Positions 2,672-20,401 of a stretch of DNA of 33,046 nucleotides are shown here, piece after piece. The position numbers were made by a program, and so were the translations under genes. The notes below the pieces were generated by a model. It saw only the letters and a list, made by a program, of their open reading frames with translations. It ran no database searches and was not told the DNA's origin. The DNA lies in IMG/VR virus record IMGVR_UViG_3300020385_000034, positions 1 to 33,046 of that record. One strand, 5' to 3'. This DNA comes from a virus. Each line of letters begins with the position of its first letter. The stretch's first letter is position 1.

Positions 2672-5600
2672 TTAAGTTATGTTATCAGGTGTTCCAGGAA
2701 GATTAAGTCTAGGATCATTACTCTGAATGTCCGTACCCTGTCTAAGGATAGCAGAAGGTCTTGTAGTAACCTCTCTAGTGATACTCTCTTGCAAGGTATC
2801 ATAGACACGAACAAGTCCTCCTACTGTCTCATAGACACCAGCATAGCGTAGACCATTCTTAATGAATACCTGACCATAGAATGCTCTACCATCTATATAT
2901 CCAGTCTGCTTGAGACCGACCAAATCTGTTACCTGAATCAAGGTTTGCGGGTCAACTCCAATAGGATCTCTAACTATTTTAAATCTAGGTCTGAGAACAG
3001 CATTAACACCAGTAGCAGAAATAATAGATATTGTTGGTGTTCTTGTAAATCCTGCTCCTGGAGAAAGAATATTAACACCTACAACTGCACCAAATGGTCC
3101 AGTAACAAGACTTAAAACTGGATTTCTACCACCACTATTAGGCACCGGTCTGCCTGTCCCCGGATCTCCTATAACAACATCTCCAGTACCACCAGTACCA
3201 CCAGCACCATCACCAGCACCACCAGTACCTCCACCGCCACCATCTTCACCATCTCCAGCGCCACCATCTCCATCTCCAGCGCCGCCACCGCCTGGTGCTC
3301 CACCGCCACCAGGTCCCCCGCTTGGTGCTCCACCTCCTCCTTTTGGTAGTCCTGGCTCATTGGTGTCATAATTTGGCACGGTTTTCTCAGGATCACCAGT
3401 GAACTGGTAATCTCCAGAAGGAGGAATCAGTGTTCCCCCAGGTCCACCAAGACCAGTATCGTCAGTTATACCACCCGGTGGAGTTGCTGGTTCATTAATA
3501 CCTGGTAGTAAAATATCATCATCCTCAAATCCACCAGTAACTGTGATTGGATCACCTGGTTTATAGTTAATTCCAGGATTCTCAATATCTATATCTTCTA
3601 ATACAAGAGTAACAGGATAACCACCACCAGGATCACCTGTATATCCAACACCAGGAGTTTTAACTACAACATCCTTAATAACACCAATACCACCTATTTC
3701 TTGAGGACATGGTGGAGGGATCAAAATAGCAGAAGCACCAACAGGATTTTGCTTCCAAGAAGATTGATCGCTAATTTCTGTTGGCACATTTGCAAGAATC
3801 TCAAGACCACAATAGACTGGGTTTAAAACGAAGTTAGTTCCTGGTTGATTTGAGTTTTCTAATGTAATCTCAACAGTTTTCTTGCCCTTAGTAAATCTTC
3901 TAGTTTTTTCTTCTATATTTTCTGAAACTTCTGTTCTTTGAACTCTTCTACCATCAACTCTAACGACCATTTTATCATCTGCTTGGGTTCGGAAAGTATA
4001 TCTTCCATCAATAGGGAAATCTACATTTTCCCAGGTAAATACCCACTCTCTTCCTTGGATTTCTTCTGTTGCCTGTCTTCCAAACGCGAAGAACGGCGAT
4101 AGATATGGACCCAAATGGTCTTTTACTTTAACTTTAGTACCCTTTTTTGCGGAGCTTCTGGCAAAACTTTTCTTTTTATAACTTGTAATGAGAGGACCAT
4201 TATAACGTATACTACCTTTTCCTTTAATTCTCTTTGGTTTGTTTGCTTCTTTATCAATCACTGTTGTGAGAATTTTTACATAACTATCTTCACCATCAGA
4301 AGAACCTTCTTCTCTTTCTAGTTTTGCCTTACCACCTTTACCAACTACAACTTGAAGTCTAGTTCCGGCAGGAAGTCTTTTATCAGCATATGCATATGCA
4401 CCACCAGATCCACCGCCACCACCTTTAACCATTTTTTCTTTTACTTCAGTTTTAATTTTGATAACTTGTCTTCTACCATCACCATCATAGTAGAAAGATT
4501 CTCCTTCACCAGTACCAGTTATAGTCTCATACGTATCACCTGCTCTATCAGTATAACCAGATCCACCACCACCAATACATCTGGCTCTAACTGCAGTCAT
4601 ATTTAACTTTCCTGGTTCTGATTTTGGTACTAATACTTCATAAGTTCCTGGTTCTGTATAAGTCACACTTTTTCCTGTGCTACCCCAAATAATCTTAACA
4701 CCACCACCAGCACCATCACCAGCATTGCCAAGACCACGGTTTCCGCCGCCACCAGCACCATACTTAGCACCCTTTCCTCCATCATCATCAGCACTTCTAA
4801 TTTCATTTGCGGTTCCTCTTTCAGAACCCATAAGGTCTGCACCATAACCACCATCGATAGTTCCGCCCTTACCACTTTTCGCTGACCTACCATTTCTTAA
4901 ACCAGCACCACCACCATTGCCACCTTTTTTTCCATCTTGCTGCCCTTCACCAGGACCACCTCTACCACCCTTTCCTTTCTTTACCCTACCTACTTTGTTC
5001 TGTTTCTTACCAGAAGTTCCTCCGAATCCACCACCTGCATGACAGAGCATAGATTCTTTAATAATATCAACATCGATTTCTTTTGCGTTACTGACCCAAT
5101 CAGCAGTGTCAAAAATTACTTTAGGTTTTTTTACAAATGATTTCTGAGCAGCATTTGTCACATTAACTGTAATAGTTGTGCTTCCTTCATTTAAGAAAAC
5201 TTTATTTAAAGATGGAAGTGGTTTTGAAAATGATTCAAGAGCGAAGGTTGCTCCACCAACAGTTATGCTTCCTCCATCATCACAAGCACCTCTAACACCA
5301 TAGAACCCAGCATATGGAACTTTGACATTCCAACTTTTAGAAAATGTTACACCTGATTCAGAACTCTCTGGACTTGACTTTGGTTGTATAGGAGACATCG
5401 CAAAGCGATTCATAAATTTTCCCCATCTCTTATCGTAGACAGGATACCACCTACCACTATCAGATCCATTAAACCTGGTTGTCCACATTGGATTGTTAGG
5501 ACATCTACCCTCCTGTGGTGGTGGAGTTTCTTTTGGAATCGGTGCTCTTGGTGCCTTGATTGCTAACGCAAGACCCATTGGATTCTCTTGCCAACTTTCT

Positions 5601-8856: not shown

Positions 8857-10701
8857 TTAGTATATGTCAAGAGCACCATCAAGACCAGACCTATCACCTG
8901 CTCTTGCTCTTTCAAGTTCCGCGTCAATATCAGCAGATGTCTCAGATCCTAGACCAGATGATGATGAAACATCACTTTGTCCTTTTGCTGGTTTTGCAAA
9001 TGGTATTGTTTCCTCAGCCGCAGGAGTTGCTTCTCCATTAGCAGATGCATTAGTGATAGATTCTGCACTAGGTAGTTGGGTCTGAGACTGACCTCCTCCA
9101 CCACCATCAAGAGTATAGAAATCCGATACTGCTATGTTAGGAGACAAATCACAACCAAATACACTCAACTTTATATTACTAAAAGACAGAGCACCAGAAA
9201 TACTACCAACAATTTTAGATATTTCTTTAGTTATACCATCAACTTGATTAGTAATGCCAGCAATCTGACTCTGAATTTCTCCAACAAATGATTCCAAGTT
9301 AGTTAAAAGTTGATCATTAGCACTACTTACTTCCTCAGCAGTGTTTCTAATAGTAGATGCAACGATATCCTCAGCATAACACATTGGAACTCTTGGTGCT
9401 GTTTCAAACTCAACTCCGTTTCTCACCTGCTGTGCTGCCTTAATCTCAAGACCATCTAAGTCAATACTACTCTGCAACTTACTTAAGATTTGACCAGCAA
9501 GTTTTTGAATAATTTTATTATACAGACAATATGTAAGAGCAGTCATTTTCTCTTTTACATCTGCAAAGAGATGTCTAAAACTAGATGGAATTGTTGATAC
9601 TACAGCAGTTAATCCTTGATTTATAGTCTTCATAATATATTCTGCAATTTTATCAAATATTATCTTCATATATTTTGCCATTGCACTGGCAGCATCTTCA
9701 ATCGTTTTTCTTATATTTTTAATAGTGCTTGATACTTGTTCAACATAACTCTGGAATGTATGCAAATACTTATCAATCTTACTGATAAGATTATCTATAA
9801 CTGTTTGAATGTTTTTAACAGCAGATTCCAAATGGCTATCTGCCTTCATCATAGGAATTTTTTGCTTATATTGATCATCCCTCTTAACAGATGCAGTCTC
9901 AAGTTGATGAACACCATCAACTTGTTCTTTAGTTGCACCTGGTTGTGGTGGAGAAAGAGGAGATTCCTCTCTCTTTTTTTGAGATTTTAAAGATTTTCTT
10001 ACCTGTTTACGAATAAATACGTCACGTTCTATTGCCTTTAATCCTTTTTTTGCTGCTAAATCTTCAGCATCAGAAACATATTGCTGTACTACAGGAACAT
10101 TGGAAGCAGAAGAAGGTAATCCATGTTCATCTACTATAGCTTCTGGTGATGGTTCTAATGTATATGGAGATATACCTGGTTTCGTAGTTTGAAGTGCTTC
10201 ATCAGGTAAGACTTCTCTTATTGCCTCAGACTTTTGAATTTGTCCGTTAGCAATACCACTAGTATTCAGAGAACCAGGTACGGTATCTGTAACGGTAGTT
10301 TTACCAATTGATGTTGCAAGAGTAGACTGTGAATTGTTTCCAAGTACTCCCATAATAACAGGAACTTGCATTTCCTGTCCATCAATAAAGAAACCAAACA
10401 CCATATTACCTTGGCGAAGGTTAGCAGTTGCGAAAGATTCCGTTTGACCACCACCTCCAGTCACAGGATACATTATCTGTGCCCAAGGCAAATCTTCAGA
10501 AGGAATTATTGTTTCCCCCTGGTCATGAAGACCAATGATTCTTACTTTATATCTCCTTCCCCAACCAGGAATTTGACCTGCATTAGCATACTTACCGGGG
10601 AGAATATTATCTCTCCAAACAGAATCATCTGCAATTTGACCAATCCACCAGTTAAAAGATGAACCTAGAAACCCTGGATTAAAGCTAGTATTTCCTTCCA
10701 T
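8857..10701 (-). CDS. 5: Baseplate hub protein gp5-like, without lysozyme domain (614 aa)
   Basis: Residues ~10-125 match the gp5 N-terminal OB-fold: N-W-W-I-G-Q-I, W-G-R-R-Y-K-V-R-I-I-G-L-H, L-P-W-A-Q-I-M-Y-P-V-T-G-G-G and V-F-G-F-F-I-D-G-x-x-M-Q-V-P-V-I-M-G. In T4, gp5 forms the central tail spike with a lysozyme domain and a beta-helix. Here the OB-fold is followed by a charged linker, helical segments (~310-410) and a Gly/Ser-rich C-terminus; I see no lysozyme catalytic region. This matches cyanophage gp5 proteins. Its start overlaps the stop of the CP12-like gene by one base, so translation is likely coupled. Confidence is high for gp5 identity and moderate for the C-terminal interpretation. 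Confidence 0.8.
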   Translation of the reverse strand: MEGNTSFNPGFLGSSFNWWIGQIADDSVWRDNILPGKYANAGQIPGWGRRYKVRIIGLHDQGETIIPSEDLPWAQIMYPVTGGGGQTESFATANLRQGNMVFGFFIDGQEMQVPVIMGVLGNNSQSTLATSIGKTTVTDTVPGSLNTSGIANGQIQKSEAIREVLPDEALQTTKPGISPYTLEPSPEAIVDEHGLPSSASNVPVVQQYVSDAEDLAAKKGLKAIERDVFIRKQVRKSLKSQKKREESPLSPPQPGATKEQVDGVHQLETASVKRDDQYKQKIPMMKADSHLESAVKNIQTVIDNLISKIDKYLHTFQSYVEQVSSTIKNIRKTIEDAASAMAKYMKIIFDKIAEYIMKTINQGLTAVVSTIPSSFRHLFADVKEKMTALTYCLYNKIIQKLAGQILSKLQSSIDLDGLEIKAAQQVRNGVEFETAPRVPMCYAEDIVASTIRNTAEEVSSANDQLLTNLESFVGEIQSQIAGITNQVDGITKEISKIVGSISGALSFSNIKLSVFGCDLSPNIAVSDFYTLDGGGGGQSQTQLPSAESITNASANGEATPAAEETIPFAKPAKGQSDVSSSSGLGSETSADIDAELERARAGDRSGLDGALDIY

Positions 10702-10934
10702 TAATCCTCATAGATTCTACATTCGTCTGCTTCTGGATTTTCATCACAGTACATTTCAAATGCTGTTGGATCATGATGATCACCTGCCTCAATATCCTTC
10801 TTGTGCTCATGAGCATAACGCTCAAGATGCTCTATCTCATCTGTAATGTGTCTACGTCTCTGAGGACTAATACTCCCTTTTTCAAGTTCATTCCTATCAT
10901 CATCAATGTGTTGTTCTATTGTTCTATCAGTCAT
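10701..10934 (-). CDS. CP12-like small protein (77 aa) inside the baseplate cluster
   Basis: The last 15 residues, YCDENPEADECRIYED, match the C-terminal signature of CP12, the redox-controlled protein that binds GAPDH and phosphoribulokinase in the cyanobacterial Calvin cycle; the two cysteines (63 and 72) have the CP12 spacing of eight. The rest is a charged, probably helical stretch (~5-50). The usual N-terminal cysteine pair and A-W-D-x-V-E-E core of full CP12 are absent, so this is a C-terminal-half match only. It lies 5 nt after the gp27-like gene and overlaps gp5 by one base, so it is probably expressed late with baseplate genes. Either it carries CP12-type activity or the motif serves a structural purpose. 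Confidence 0.7.
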   Translation of the reverse strand: MTDRTIEQHIDDDRNELEKGSISPQRRRHITDEIEHLERYAHEHKKDIEAGDHHDPTAFEMYCDENPEADECRIYED

Positions 10935-15415: not shown

Positions 15416-18400
15416 TCAGTAATCAATAATTCCTAAGAGGTTTGCTTTTGCTCTAGATGCAGAAGATGCATTAAAGTCAGGTATCTTATTTCCTGATGGA
15501 GAACGTTTTGGTGCAGAACTTTTCGTCCCACCATCAACAATAGTAACCTTTGGTTTTTGTTTTTCTAGTGGGGTAATTTCTGGGACGGTTAGTTTTGCAG
15601 GTTTCTTAATAACTGTACCACCCTTATTATATGCTACGTGAACATGGTTAGAGTGAGAGTCTGGGTATTCCCTATAACTTCCATAATTTTTATATGAAGG
15701 AGAACCGTGAATAAGTTCAACAGGGTCTACTTTATTCTTTTTATTATAATCAATCAATGATCTAAGAACTGGTGCTTGCTCATCTGTACCAACATTTTTA
15801 GGATTAGATGGTGCCCAACCACCAATATCAAGTGCTCTTCCCTCATAATGATATGAATTGGCACTATGTCCACTCTTACCCCAAGGTAAATGTTTAGGAT
15901 GTCTATGAATACTTCCCATTACTGGCAAAGAAGCCTTTCTCTGCTTCATAAAAGTGCCAAGATCACCTGCAATCTTTTGACCTTCAGAACCATATCCGTC
16001 ACCAAGTTTAGCACCTTGAAGATTTGCTTGTGAATATTCTCTAGTATCTTCTTTCTTACCATCCTTACCACCACCAAGCATAGAACCAATACCAGCCATA
16101 CTATTAATAGCATTGGTTAGCATCTCAACAAGAGTCATAGGTTTGTTCTTTTCATTTGCGGCAGCTGCTTCTCTCTTCTTTGGTGTCGCAACATTAACAT
16201 TTTCAAGTTCTTTATATCCCTTTTCAGAATTTGGTAAGTATGAACCATCTTCTCCAAGTTTTGCTCCAACTGAAGCAGCTGACGCGCCAGCGTGCTCGGC
16301 AAATAATTCATCATGCCCTTCATCTAACATATGATTTTTAAATGTTTGATATGATTGGTTATGTGCATAAGCAACCGTTGCTTTCGGGTCTGTTGCAATA
16401 CTCTTTGGTGGAGTCTCTACTGGAGAACCAGAATCATAACTTGTTATTGTAGATAGTTCCTTCTTAGTATTTGCAGAGTTTAAAACAAGATTCCACTTAT
16501 CAGATTCGGGCGAAACTCCAGTGAGTTTATCTGACCCAAAAACTCCAAGTAGTTTTTTATCAACAACCCTATTCATTTGTTTAACAACCACATCACCATC
16601 AGGTGTTCTAGTATATCCAAGAACATATGTCTCTCCAGTATCACCTGGGTTTTCAATATGTTTACTACTAATCATTCCCTGCCTATAACTTACAGGATCA
16701 AAATCAATCTCACCAACAGGGGCCCCGCCATTAGCATACATCATACCTTCCATAATCTTTGGTTTATTTGTTCCACCACCAGCAGCATTCATTGACATCA
16801 TAGTATCAAGACCATACTTCTGCACAGCACCAGCACTCATTACAAATTCACCGTTGGTAAGCATTGCAGGAACTTTGTCTATACCAGTTTTACCTGTGAC
16901 TTTACCACCCTCTTCATAACCACGCATCTTCTGCATCATTTCTTCTTGCTGCTTTCTTCTATTGTATAGTTTTCCAGCAAGAGTATCGTTACTCACCTCT
17001 CCCAATTCACCTGTGGTTGCTTTCTGTGCATCACCACTAAACCAGGACATTGGATTGAACATATTAAAACTATTACCATCTTTAACTTCACCACCTCCTT
17101 CATAACCACGAAGCATCTTCATTGCTTCTTCTTGTTTTTTTCTTCTATTGTATAGTTTTCCAGCAAGAGTATCGTTACTTACTTTTCCTAACTCACCTTT
17201 GGTTGCTTTCTGTGCATCACCACTAAACCAGGACATTGGATTAAACATATTAAAACTATTATTATCTTGTTTCTTAACAACTCCACCATTATTCATAGCA
17301 AGAATGCTTGAGTCATTACTTACTAATCCACCACCCTTCATTTGTTTTGGTGGGTCTTTTATCTCACCAGAGAAACCATAACTTTTCTCCTTGCCAGTTT
17401 CTAATCTCTGTATTTGCTCTTCTCTTTCTGCTCCTGCTCCAGTAATAAAATCACTAAACGTCTGAAGAGGATTTCTATTTTCATTCTGTGCTTTTAGATC
17501 TGCTATTGTTTTATCTTTTCCTTGCTCTTCTACCGATTCATTTGCTTGCTCATCTGCACTATCCTCAACAGTTTGGGGGGAGATTGCTGGGATCGCAGCA
17601 CCTGCTAGCAAAAGACCTGCACCAGCAACAACCGGATTAGCAAGGAGTGATAAAATTTTTGGTGTAAACAGAAGTAGACTTGTGGTTATACCAGATATTA
17701 ATGATCCAAGTCCTGTTCCAAATATTAAATATCCTCCAAGTAAAGCAGGCCACCAGTCACCCAAAAATCTAATAATACTCTGAATTTTCTTTCCATTCTT
17801 CTCATCACCAAACCAATCAAGTAACTTTACTAGTGCTCTACCTAAAAATATAGTTGCAAAGAATTCAATAATCTTATCAAAGATTGACTTTACAGGAGCA
17901 AGAACTTTCTTTGCTGTCTTCAGTAATACATTATCTTTCTTTTCTAACTTACTTTCTCTTACAGACCTTCTGTCTCTTTCCTCTTTCTTCCTTTCCTTAT
18001 TCGCTTGCTTTTCTTCAAACTTTTGGTCCTTCTTTATGACCTCAAGAATACTATCAATACCCTTAAGAATATCATCAAAATTACTTTTAGATTCTTCTTC
18101 TACTGGATCAACATTAATCTTTGGTTGTTTTGGTACAACTAAGGCACCACCCCTACCATCAAGAGTTTTTGTTTCTTCATTATCAGATTCTTTTTTTCTA
18201 TTCAGAAAGTTTTCAACAAATCTACTGAACTTATCACTATCATTTCTCGTCTTAAATCCTTCCTTTCTCTCTTCACTAGTCAGTTGCTCACCTTCAATGG
18301 TGCCATCTGCTACTAACTCATCACGATACTTGGCATACTTATCCTCACCAAAAAATTTGGAAGGGACAATTGCCGATGCCTTAACTGTAGTTACCTTTGG

Positions 18401-18694
18401 TTCTGGAGTTTCTTCTGCAGGTTCATCTTGAATAGAACCTAACAAGTCATCAAGACCCTCTGGAATATCTTCTTCCTCTTCTTCATCAACCATATCTCTT
18501 GCCATCTCATGCAAGACGGTATCATTACTACCTTGAATGATTTTACTATCAACCTCACTTGTCTCTTTAGCATCTAAAGAATTATAATACTTAGACAGAA
18601 TAGCAATCTGTTCGTCAGAAAGTTTGGCGACAAGATCCTCTCCCAGCTTTATGCTGTAAGTTTCTCTTATCTGTACCTTACTTCTTCTAGCCAT
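15416..18694 (-). CDS. Putative tape-measure or hub protein with M15-like peptidase domain (1092 aa)
   Basis: Acidic N-terminal region, a Lys/Glu-rich coiled-coil stretch (~210-270), then strongly hydrophobic segments (~290-395, Ala/Gly/Leu-rich) as in tape-measure proteins. Two near-identical 62-residue repeats follow, then GIDKVPAMLTNGEFVM. Near the C-terminus, S-Y-H-Y-E-G-R-A-L-D-I-G (His ~947, Asp ~954) and H-S-N-H-V-H-V (~1015) have the H-x(6)-D and H-x-H metal-ligand layout of M15-type peptidoglycan peptidases. Its ATG lies inside the short chaperone ORF (8-nt overlap), reproducing the chaperone-then-tape-measure order of many tailed phages. A CATAAATA late-promoter match lies at 18799-18806. 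gp29-like by position only; I see no direct sequence match. Confidence 0.65.
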   Translation of the reverse strand: MARRSKVQIRETYSIKLGEDLVAKLSDEQIAILSKYYNSLDAKETSEVDSKIIQGSNDTVLHEMARDMVDEEEEEDIPEGLDDLLGSIQDEPAEETPEPKVTTVKASAIVPSKFFGEDKYAKYRDELVADGTIEGEQLTSEERKEGFKTRNDSDKFSRFVENFLNRKKESDNEETKTLDGRGGALVVPKQPKINVDPVEEESKSNFDDILKGIDSILEVIKKDQKFEEKQANKERKKEERDRRSVRESKLEKKDNVLLKTAKKVLAPVKSIFDKIIEFFATIFLGRALVKLLDWFGDEKNGKKIQSIIRFLGDWWPALLGGYLIFGTGLGSLISGITTSLLLFTPKILSLLANPVVAGAGLLLAGAAIPAISPQTVEDSADEQANESVEEQGKDKTIADLKAQNENRNPLQTFSDFITGAGAEREEQIQRLETGKEKSYGFSGEIKDPPKQMKGGGLVSNDSSILAMNNGGVVKKQDNNSFNMFNPMSWFSGDAQKATKGELGKVSNDTLAGKLYNRRKKQEEAMKMLRGYEGGGEVKDGNSFNMFNPMSWFSGDAQKATTGELGEVSNDTLAGKLYNRRKQQEEMMQKMRGYEEGGKVTGKTGIDKVPAMLTNGEFVMSAGAVQKYGLDTMMSMNAAGGGTNKPKIMEGMMYANGGAPVGEIDFDPVSYRQGMISSKHIENPGDTGETYVLGYTRTPDGDVVVKQMNRVVDKKLLGVFGSDKLTGVSPESDKWNLVLNSANTKKELSTITSYDSGSPVETPPKSIATDPKATVAYAHNQSYQTFKNHMLDEGHDELFAEHAGASAASVGAKLGEDGSYLPNSEKGYKELENVNVATPKKREAAAANEKNKPMTLVEMLTNAINSMAGIGSMLGGGKDGKKEDTREYSQANLQGAKLGDGYGSEGQKIAGDLGTFMKQRKASLPVMGSIHRHPKHLPWGKSGHSANSYHYEGRALDIGGWAPSNPKNVGTDEQAPVLRSLIDYNKKNKVDPVELIHGSPSYKNYGSYREYPDSHSNHVHVAYNKGGTVIKKPAKLTVPEITPLEKQKPKVTIVDGGTKSSAPKRSPSGNKIPDFNASSASRAKANLLGIIDY
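16915..17261 (-). repeat. 161-bp near-identical tandem duplication inside the 1092-aa tail gene
   Basis: Plus-strand segments 16915-17075 and 17101-17261 are copies with a 186-bp period and only scattered differences. They encode two repeats containing N-S-F-N-M-F-N-P-M-S-W-F-S-G-D-A-Q-K-A-T and V-S-N-D-T-L-A-G-K-L-Y-N-R-R-K. The in-frame period of 62 codons and the nucleotide similarity point to a fairly recent duplication or ongoing gene conversion between the copies. Confidence 0.85.
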
Positions 18695-18863
18695 TTGCTG
18701 TCTGCTGCTTTAACTTCTCATCTTCAAGATGCGCTTGTAATAAACCAACATAAATGTCTCTTTCCCAAGGGATAAGATTCTCAAGTTCAGTTAATGAATA
18801 TTTATGGTACTGCATTAAGGCAAAATTGAGACGATAATAACTCTCAAGATCCATATGGATCAT
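18687..18863 (-). CDS. Short tail-assembly chaperone ORF, likely read by -1 frameshift from gp26 (58 aa)
   Basis: The ATG at 18863 is 2 nt past the gp26-like stop, in the -1 frame. The protein (M-D-L-E-S-Y-Y-R-L-N-F-A-L-M-Q-Y-H-K-Y-S then L-I-P-W-E-R-D-I-Y-V-G-L-L) is helical and acidic. It has no usable Shine-Dalgarno of its own: the only purine-rich site, GGAGGG at 18888-18893, is 24 nt away. A U_UUU_UUC heptamer before the gp26 stop would fuse it to gp26 as a ~299-aa product. Its end overlaps the start of the 1092-aa gene by 8 nt. By order and layout it corresponds to the T part of lambda G/GT. Independent start by termination-reinitiation is the alternative. Confidence 0.75.
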   Translation of the reverse strand: MIHMDLESYYRLNFALMQYHKYSLTELENLIPWERDIYVGLLQAHLEDEKLKQQTANG

Positions 18864-18893
18864 GCCTACGCGAAAAAACTTGACAGTCCCTCC
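18848..18893 (-). promoter_or_regulatory. Putative -1 programmed frameshift signal at the gp26 end
   Basis: Three elements lie in order on the minus strand: GGAGGG (18893-18888), then 9 nt, the heptamer T_TTT_TTC (18878-18872) with codons AGT TTT TTC in the zero frame, then 10 nt containing the zero-frame stop TAG, then a GATCC-ATAT-GGATC hairpin (18861-18848). After a -1 slip the frame reads CGC GTA GGC ATG and continues open into the 58-codon ORF. The E. coli dnaX frameshift site has the same order of SD-like element, slippery heptamer and hairpin. The hairpin has only five pairs, so its contribution is the weakest point. Confidence 0.75.
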
Positions 18894-19585
18894 AAGACAA
18901 CTACACTTTCTACTTTTGTATTTGGATTAGTTACAGTAATAGAATGAGACAGTTTAGGCATTGTCTCAAAGAACTTTTCAATGTCTTTAAACTGTGTAGA
19001 GTTCATTGACTCAACAAATTCTTTAATCTCTTTCTTAGTACAGTCCGCAGATGCCCAAACTTCTTCCTCAGTATAGATCTTATCAATACAGGATGCAATC
19101 AATTCAAATGATTGATCCATAGCATTTTTATCACTGAAGTCAAAGTTGTTCTTAATGAACTGGTCTAAAGATGGATACTTCATCTCCATCATAATGGTAG
19201 TATCAATCTTAATTTGTTTGCTATGATTTTCATTCTTCTCAATCTTAATATCATCAAGGTCAATTGTCACAGGAACCTGTGTCGTACCATCATCAGGACA
19301 AACAATATTAACTTCAATCTCTTCACCAACAGACTTTCCCCTGATGTTGAGGAATAAGTATTCAATATCAAATGTAGGAAGTTTCTCTACCTTGATACCC
19401 TTTGTAATAATACAATTTTGAATAACTGTTTTGATTGCATTGGTGATTTGTTTAGAATCTTCACTCTCCAAAGCAATAACTAATACCTTTTCTTCTTTAA
19501 CTAGAAAGGGTCTGTATGTGATGCTTTCTTCGGTTGATGGCAACTCAAGTTCATATCTTGGTGTAACAATCTTTGGTAAAGGCAT
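18866..19585 (-). CDS. 26: gp26-like baseplate hub / tail assembly chaperone (239 aa)
   Basis: The sequence fits the T4 baseplate protein family that contains gp26: L-P-S-T-E-E-S-I-T-Y-R-P-F-L-V-K-E-E-K-V-L near residue 15-35, I-E-Y-L-F-L-N-I-R-G-K-S-V-G-E, a V-x-C-P-D-D-G-T segment near 105, and a helical C-terminal half. T4 gp26 (208 aa) acts in hub assembly. Here the gene precedes a short -1-frame ORF and a tape-measure-like gene, which argues for a tail-chaperone role like lambda gpG. An AATAAATA late-promoter match lies about 26 nt upstream, with AGGAT near the ATG. The last codons carry the candidate frameshift heptamer. Family call is confident; function in hub versus tube-length control is inferred. 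Confidence 0.8.
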   Translation of the reverse strand: MPLPKIVTPRYELELPSTEESITYRPFLVKEEKVLVIALESEDSKQITNAIKTVIQNCIITKGIKVEKLPTFDIEYLFLNIRGKSVGEEIEVNIVCPDDGTTQVPVTIDLDDIKIEKNENHSKQIKIDTTIMMEMKYPSLDQFIKNNFDFSDKNAMDQSFELIASCIDKIYTEEEVWASADCTKKEIKEFVESMNSTQFKDIEKFFETMPKLSHSITVTNPNTKVESVVVLEGLSSFFA

Positions 19586-19780: not shown

Positions 19781-20401
19781 TTATTCATTTGTATTTGTTG
19801 ATGGTATAACAGAAGATTCTTTAACTTCAGTATCACCAATAATATATCTAAGATAAGTCATTGATACAGTACATTTTAATAAATCCGTAGACCCATATGA
19901 CAAAGGCATTGAATTTATTGCGATCGGATATGCATCAATGAAAAGATATTTTAAGTCAAAACCACCATCTTTTTCAAATTTTGATACTGTCATACCTGTT
20001 TTATATTTTTCCGGATACTCTACTTTATAATCATACTTAGGAAATTTCCTAATTTCCTTTGAATTATTTCCTACAATAAAATTAATCCATCTTTCAAAGT
20101 ATCTAATCTGCGAATATGTTTCCCCTTCAACATAAAAAGTTAAATCTATTCTATCATCATACATCCTTCTATATGCATTTCTCTCAGTCACACCGTGACG
20201 ATCACCTGTAATCTCTTGGGTATTTAAAGACACTCCAGGAAGAGATGCCTCAGAACAAGACATATGAAACTCATCTACATCTGTCAAATTATAAAAACCC
20301 TCTAACACCGATGGTGGAGTTATAGTAACAAAAAATTTCGATGTTAATGACGGTCTTAATAACGCACTTTTTATTTTTGCTACAGATCTACCGGTTGCCA
20401 T
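19781..20401 (-). CDS. Tail-tube-family protein, gp19/gp54-like (206 aa)
   Basis: The protein resembles the T4 gp19/gp54 family: F-F-V-T-I-T-P-P near residue 23, an S-E-A-S-L-P-G-V segment near 50, an R-R-M-Y-D-D-R-I-D-L-T-F-Y-V stretch, a central W-I-N-F-I-V-G-N, and a C-terminal D-A-Y-P-I-A-I-N-S-M-P-L-S-Y-G followed by the strand motif L-L-K-C-T-V-S-M-T-Y-L-R-Y. Its length lies between T4 gp19 (163) and gp54 (320). It may be a baseplate tube-initiation protein or a second tube subunit; its position beside gp26 favours the baseplate. The gene is divergent from gp4 with only 30 nt between starts. The frame stays open past its stop. Confidence 0.65.
   Translation of the reverse strand: MATGRSVAKIKSALLRPSLTSKFFVTITPPSVLEGFYNLTDVDEFHMSCSEASLPGVSLNTQEITGDRHGVTERNAYRRMYDDRIDLTFYVEGETYSQIRYFERWINFIVGNNSKEIRKFPKYDYKVEYPEKYKTGMTVSKFEKDGGFDLKYLFIDAYPIAINSMPLSYGSTDLLKCTVSMTYLRYIIGDTEVKESSVIPSTNTNE

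Follow-up and report, generated by a model that had tools for sequence, protein, structure and literature searches.

The 3' end of a gene related to T4 gene 26, in a viral DNA stretch of 33,046 bases taken from IMG/VR (the window), raises the question of whether the short open reading frame (ORF) behind it, in the -1 phase, is translated as an extension of that gene. An earlier note on this DNA had proposed that it is, through a -1 ribosomal frameshift like that of the lambda G and GT tail assembly chaperones. The gp26-type gene (18866..19585, minus strand, 239 aa) ends AGT TTT TTC GCG TAG, with the stop codon at 18868-18866. The perfect slippery heptamer described in that note, T_TTT_TTC, was located at 18878-18872 on the minus strand, in the gp26 frame and in X_XXY_YYZ phase, close to where the 0-frame ORF ends. 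Its proximity to the stop also stood, although the spacer is three bases (GCG) rather than the 4 nt given, a trivial difference. As predicted, the -1 frame was found to be open from 5' of the heptamer through a TAG at 18689-18687 (FFRVGMIHMDLESYY...TANG), with no stop at the junction. The extension (18687..18878, minus strand) comprises 63 codons including FF, plus the stop, and a frameshift fusion would be 238 + 61 = 299 aa long, against the approximately 299 aa anticipated. When read from the ATG at 18863, the -1 ORF product is 58 aa; no Shine-Dalgarno sequence lies at a usable distance before it, and the ORF overlaps the ATG (18694-18692) of the next gene, both as had been noted.

That next gene (15416..18694, minus strand) encodes 1,092 aa and is probably the tape-measure gene. 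The earlier description of it as tape-measure-like agrees with the gene order, in which a tail tube gene (19781..20401, minus strand; phrog_45, 4.2e-31; PF23849, 8.8e-13) is followed by the gp26-type gene and then by the 1,092-aa gene, while the matches to tape-measure profiles were weak (phrog_23013, 2.6e-4; phrog_25241, 2.4e-3). The protein also matched phrog_35029, of unknown function (1.6e-75). In addition to the tail tube, T4-like neighbors included genes for head closure, a DNA end protector, a baseplate tail tube cap, baseplate wedge, hub/tail lysozyme, and single-stranded-DNA binding. A CP12-domain gene was also found between the tail genes (10701-10934, minus strand; PF02672, 1.5e-14); CP12 is a host-metabolism gene typical of cyanophages. 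The T4-like neighbors together with CP12 indicate that the window is most likely a fragment of a T4-like cyanophage.

Across 8,572 codons in 19 long ORFs, 59 in-phase X_XXY_YYZ heptamers were counted in the window. Only one of the 59 was T_TTT_TTC, and it lay 4 codons before the end of the gp26-type gene. The junction was then compared among relatives, the check that the earlier note had proposed. Two IMG/VR searches, after removal of duplicates, gave 136 distinct loci including the window. TTTTTTC preceded the gp26 stop by exactly 10 nt in 136/136, and the gp51-type ORF was in the -1 phase in every one of them. For codon analysis, the loci were grouped into 124 clusters under 90% identity. 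The Phe pair at the heptamer was encoded TTT TTC in all 124, preceded in each case by a codon ending in T, while Phe codons elsewhere in the gp26-type genes were 73% TTT and 27% TTC. No p-value is attached to this bias because the clusters are not independent lineages. The T_TTT_TTC at the end of the gp26-type gene is confirmed, and chance does not account for it. The gp26 stop itself was TAG in 117/124 clusters, perhaps owing to the -1-frame codons that it yields or to termination efficiency.

Among named phages, a heptamer of the form U_UUU_UU(C/U/G) with the second ORF in the -1 phase was observed in every cyanophage examined and in Vibrio phages F86 and VH7D, Aeromonas phages AS-zj and Aeh1, Cronobacter phage LPCS28, Pseudomonas phage Astolliot, Stenotrophomonas phage Yut2, Sinorhizobium phage phiM12, Caulobacter phage Cr30, Rhizobium phage RHph_I34, and Melnitz-2, a range that spans Straboviridae, Kyanoviridae, and phages of Rhizobium, Caulobacter, Stenotrophomonas, and Pseudomonas. 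The Ackermannviridae-like Vibrio phages D503 and 1.255.O had the two ORFs in the -1 phase with no perfect heptamer. Both (L165 and L168 in our set) carry a TAATG junction near 3214-3217 and may use another slip or a restart.

In profile searches, the gp26-type protein matched PF12322 (3e-75) and phrog_150 (2.6e-79). The -1 ORF matched phrog_634 (baseplate hub assembly catalyst) at 1.4e-27, and it aligned in addition with the C-terminal end of phrog_150, a profile of 282 positions. Since the gp26-type protein and the -1 ORF each match phrog_150, that profile spans both domains. On these matches, the 58-aa ORF is identified as the gp51 C-terminal domain, predicted to be equivalent to the T-like part of the lambda chaperone (TAC-C). 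The tblastn alignments of the extension started at FF, upstream of any start codon. The sequence thus arranged would give two forms with a common N-terminal domain, the longer one extended. To characterize the N-terminal domain, the AlphaFold model of the gp26-type protein (mean pLDDT, 86.9) was compared with solved structures. Approximately residues 1 to 88 matched the HK97 tail assembly chaperone 2ob9 with a Z score of 7.9 over 84 residues, followed by 3fgx (Z, 7.6) and YqbN 3klu (Z, 7.3), then 5ir0 (Z, 5.4) and unrelated entries at Z 4.0 and below. Foldseek alone ranked 2ob9 only sixth, with a weak E value of 1.1, and the fold match is therefore support rather than proof. A profile search of the gp26 alignment against solved structures returned no match. 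With moderate confidence, in keeping with a Z score of 7.9 as a moderate match, the N-terminal region appears to carry the TAC-N fold, and the 239-aa product would be a short, lambda gpG-like tail assembly chaperone.

T4 differs from the window in having two genes in place of one gene plus a slip. Residues 1 to 201 of T4 gp51 (249 aa) matched the gp26-like domain PF12322 (3.9e-52), and residues 147 to 246 matched phrog_634 (1.2e-23) in the same reading frame; T4 gp26, the short form, consists solely of the N-terminal domain. Two PF12322 copies were therefore present in T4, while each of 11 other records had a single copy, all with a slippery site. In the domain tree, which was midpoint rooted so that direction is not proven, the T4-type gp26 domains formed one clade and the gp51 domains another, and the pair was sister to the single-copy forms (95/89). 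On a simple reading, the ancestors of T4 would have exchanged a single frameshifting gene for two genes, with the opposite order possible too. A frameshift route in T4 gene 26 itself was considered and rejected; the gene ends in GLKEFFELL, with the codons GAG TTC TTT GAG, and has no heptamer and no -1 ORF after them. A fold search with a model of T4-type gp51, whose underlying alignment had only 7 rows, gave no chaperone match. Both T4 proteins are listed as hub assembly chaperones in a review, which describes gp51 as required for assembly and absent from the final particle (PMC3004832).

Two candidate stimulators flank the heptamer, and both were located where the earlier note had placed them. 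The Shine-Dalgarno-like GGAGGG, a possible stimulator, lies 9 nt 5' of the slippery site (18888..18893, minus strand). Codon -8 was GAG in 99/124 clusters, compared with 33% elsewhere in the gp26-type gene. The hairpin GATCC-ATAT-GGATC (18848..18861, minus strand), with arms at 18861-18857 and 18852-18848 and an ATAT loop, begins 10 nt downstream of the heptamer and is a probable stimulator on the evidence of covariation and excess folding energy. The mean folding energy of the RNA just 3' of the heptamer was -6.68 kcal/mol, compared with -3.60 ± 0.14 after synonymous recoding and -4.65 ± 0.17 after shuffling of codons within columns, and an energy scan along the locus peaked at approximately +4 to +48 from the heptamer. 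At the five pairs of the window's hairpin, 85.8% of cells were paired and all five pairs had changed on both sides; pairing dropped to 9 to 52% when the register was slid. Changes on both sides numbered 62, against 12.2 ± 4.4 in shuffles that ignore relatedness (0/500). RNAalifold, also when repeated in Python, predicted no consensus pair at the hairpin, an outcome that variation in stem length and register may explain. P-SSM2, P-HM2, and S-CAM1 have strong hairpins at the same place, though of different sequence, and little structure followed the heptamer in S-PM2, AS-zj, and LPCS28. A conserved downstream structure is frequent at programmed -1 frameshift sites but is not required. The hairpin thus appears to be common but not universal, with covariation in the near clade and a putative role as stimulator. 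A second fold signal was observed within the gp51-type ORF, at 18746-18785 on the minus strand (+94 to +129 from the heptamer), with a mean energy of -6.23 against -4.31 ± 0.10 in codon-column shuffles. Its consensus hairpin is GAUG-CUUG-GGAA-CGAG-CAUC, and its covariation was marginal.

Taken together, the conserved heptamer and phase, the codon bias, the covarying hairpin, the relatives without a start codon described below, the joining of both domains within a single frame in T4 gp51, and the fold match to the HK97 chaperone support the proposed -1 frameshift and the chaperone reading. We assign a probability of about 0.93 to the locus being a lambda G/GT-type tail assembly chaperone cassette in which a -1 slip at T_TTT_TTC makes the long form. 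Under this model, most ribosomes would read gp26 through to TAG and yield the 239-aa short chaperone. A minority would be slowed, behind by contact of GGAGGG with rRNA and ahead by the small hairpin; on T_TTT_TTC these ribosomes would move back by one base and yield the 299-aa long form with the gp51-type domain. During tail assembly, the probable task of both forms would be to coat the tape measure or to act as its chaperones. The slipping itself, the slip rate, the action of the stimulators, and the chaperone role are what we infer from these comparisons.

Since an in-frame ATG within the hairpin is retained by most close relatives, a separate short gp51 might be made in addition to the fusion. 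A locus with three outputs, namely gp26, the fusion, and a stand-alone gp51 from the hairpin-loop ATG, is a doubtful elaboration. If it were true, the covarying hairpin, perhaps with the second one approximately 100 nt downstream, would set the output ratio, and that ratio would set tail assembly in marine T4-like phages.

Translational coupling without any slip, in which ribosomes terminate at the TAG of gp26 and reinitiate at the ATG at 18863 or 18854 to make a separate gp51 of 52 to 58 aa, with the hairpin tuning restart, is quite unlikely. It would account for the presence of a -1-frame ATG within 10 codons in all but 2/124 clusters, for the near invariance of the loop CATATG among close relatives, and for the annotation of gp51 as a separate gene in public records for S-PM2, P-SSM2, and others. 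However, the ATG has no Shine-Dalgarno sequence before it, the perfect heptamer with its fixed codons would be left unexplained, and T4 makes the fused form. Protein similarity also continues through FFR[IVL], which precedes any start. In L073, a close relative, none of ATG, GTG, and TTG occurs near the junction, and in several other phages the first -1-frame ATG, counted from the heptamer, falls only well inside the domain: at approximately codon 15 in Astolliot, 20 in LPCS28 and Aeh1, 21 in S-CAM1 (with a TTG at 10), and 33 in AS-zj. Normal initiation of a full-length gp51 domain is therefore unlikely in these six. For Aeh1, AS-zj, LPCS28, and S-CAM1, frameshifting would be the only plausible route to the domain.

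Transcriptional slippage on the six-T run, giving mixed mRNAs of which some encode the fusion, is very improbable. The site is a homopolymer run, which reaches seven Ts in Cr30, phiM12, and Melnitz-2, but six Ts are short for efficient polymerase slippage, T6C is kept with no longer run in all 136 near loci, and the phase, upstream Shine-Dalgarno-like motif, and downstream hairpin are features of ribosomal frameshifting. That no programmed event occurs, the -1 overlap reflecting tight gene packing and FF being retained for protein reasons, is scarcely credible: overlapping ORFs are frequent in phages and T4 gp26 too ends in GLKEFF without a heptamer, yet FF permits TTC TTT, as in T4, while TTT TTC following a T-ending codon is the choice in all 124 clusters, and the hairpin covaries and exceeds codon-preserving nulls.

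The favored frameshift cassette resembles known systems in its parts. The slippery heptamer of lambda is G_GGA_AAG, whereas the window has T_TTT_TTC with a Shine-Dalgarno-like motif and a hairpin, and the protein families differ in sequence. The dnaX cassette of Escherichia coli likewise combines an upstream Shine-Dalgarno sequence, a slippery heptamer, and a downstream hairpin; it differs in making a shorter product, in its heptamer (A_AAA_AAG), in its larger stem-loop, and in belonging to an unrelated gene. As proposed here, lambda gpG/gpGT consists of a short chaperone and a minor -1 long form (Levin, Hendrix, and Casjens 1993; Xu, Hendrix, and Duda 2004; reviewed in PMC5009743), in which the first gene carries the heptamer at its 3' end and the tape measure follows (PMC5009743). 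In the tail assembly chaperone frameshift of Vandenendeviridae/Andersonviridae, TAC-N likewise ends in a poly-T motif on which a -1 slip takes place, again in a myovirus, although the motif is GTTTTT and the phage family is different (PMC12846349).

The earlier note was not aware of frameshifting being described for gp26 of T4-like phages, and a 2016 review described G-T frameshifting as a conserved trait of phages with long tails, "except T4" (PMC5009743). The novelty suggested in the earlier note did not hold. Vladimirov, Gautam, and Davidson (2022, Virology 566:9, doi 10.1016/j.virol.2021.11.003) reportedly identified T4-like chaperones, and that work is cited elsewhere for slippery poly-T signals in the TAC-N of T4-like phages (PMC12846349) and for T4-likes that have, instead of frameshifting, one short gene and one long fused gene (PMC10885494). 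From the T4 gp26 and gp51 domain matches, we infer that the genes concerned would be 26 and 51, which likewise pair a short form with a long form carrying a C-terminal extension. Going by these citations, both the frameshift principle and its occurrence in T4-like phages have been published before. The covarying hairpin and an explanation of gp51 proteins described as truncated or missing may be new additions. The window also offers a short, clean cassette for frameshifting tests in cyanobacteria.

The explanation concerns a previous genome comparison, in which cyanophage and vibriophage gp51 was described as shorter than T4 gp51 by its first ~200 residues, and as missing in Aeh1 (Sullivan et al. 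2010, PMC3037559). The former proteins would appear truncated because gp26 supplies these residues through the frameshift. Many records were found either to annotate gp51 separately or to omit it, which suggests that many T4-like genomes need the same correction. In the Aeh1 locus (L187), the gp51 domain was detected at 1201-1368, in the -1 frame behind TTTTTTC; it is unannotated in the record, as would follow from its late first ATG.
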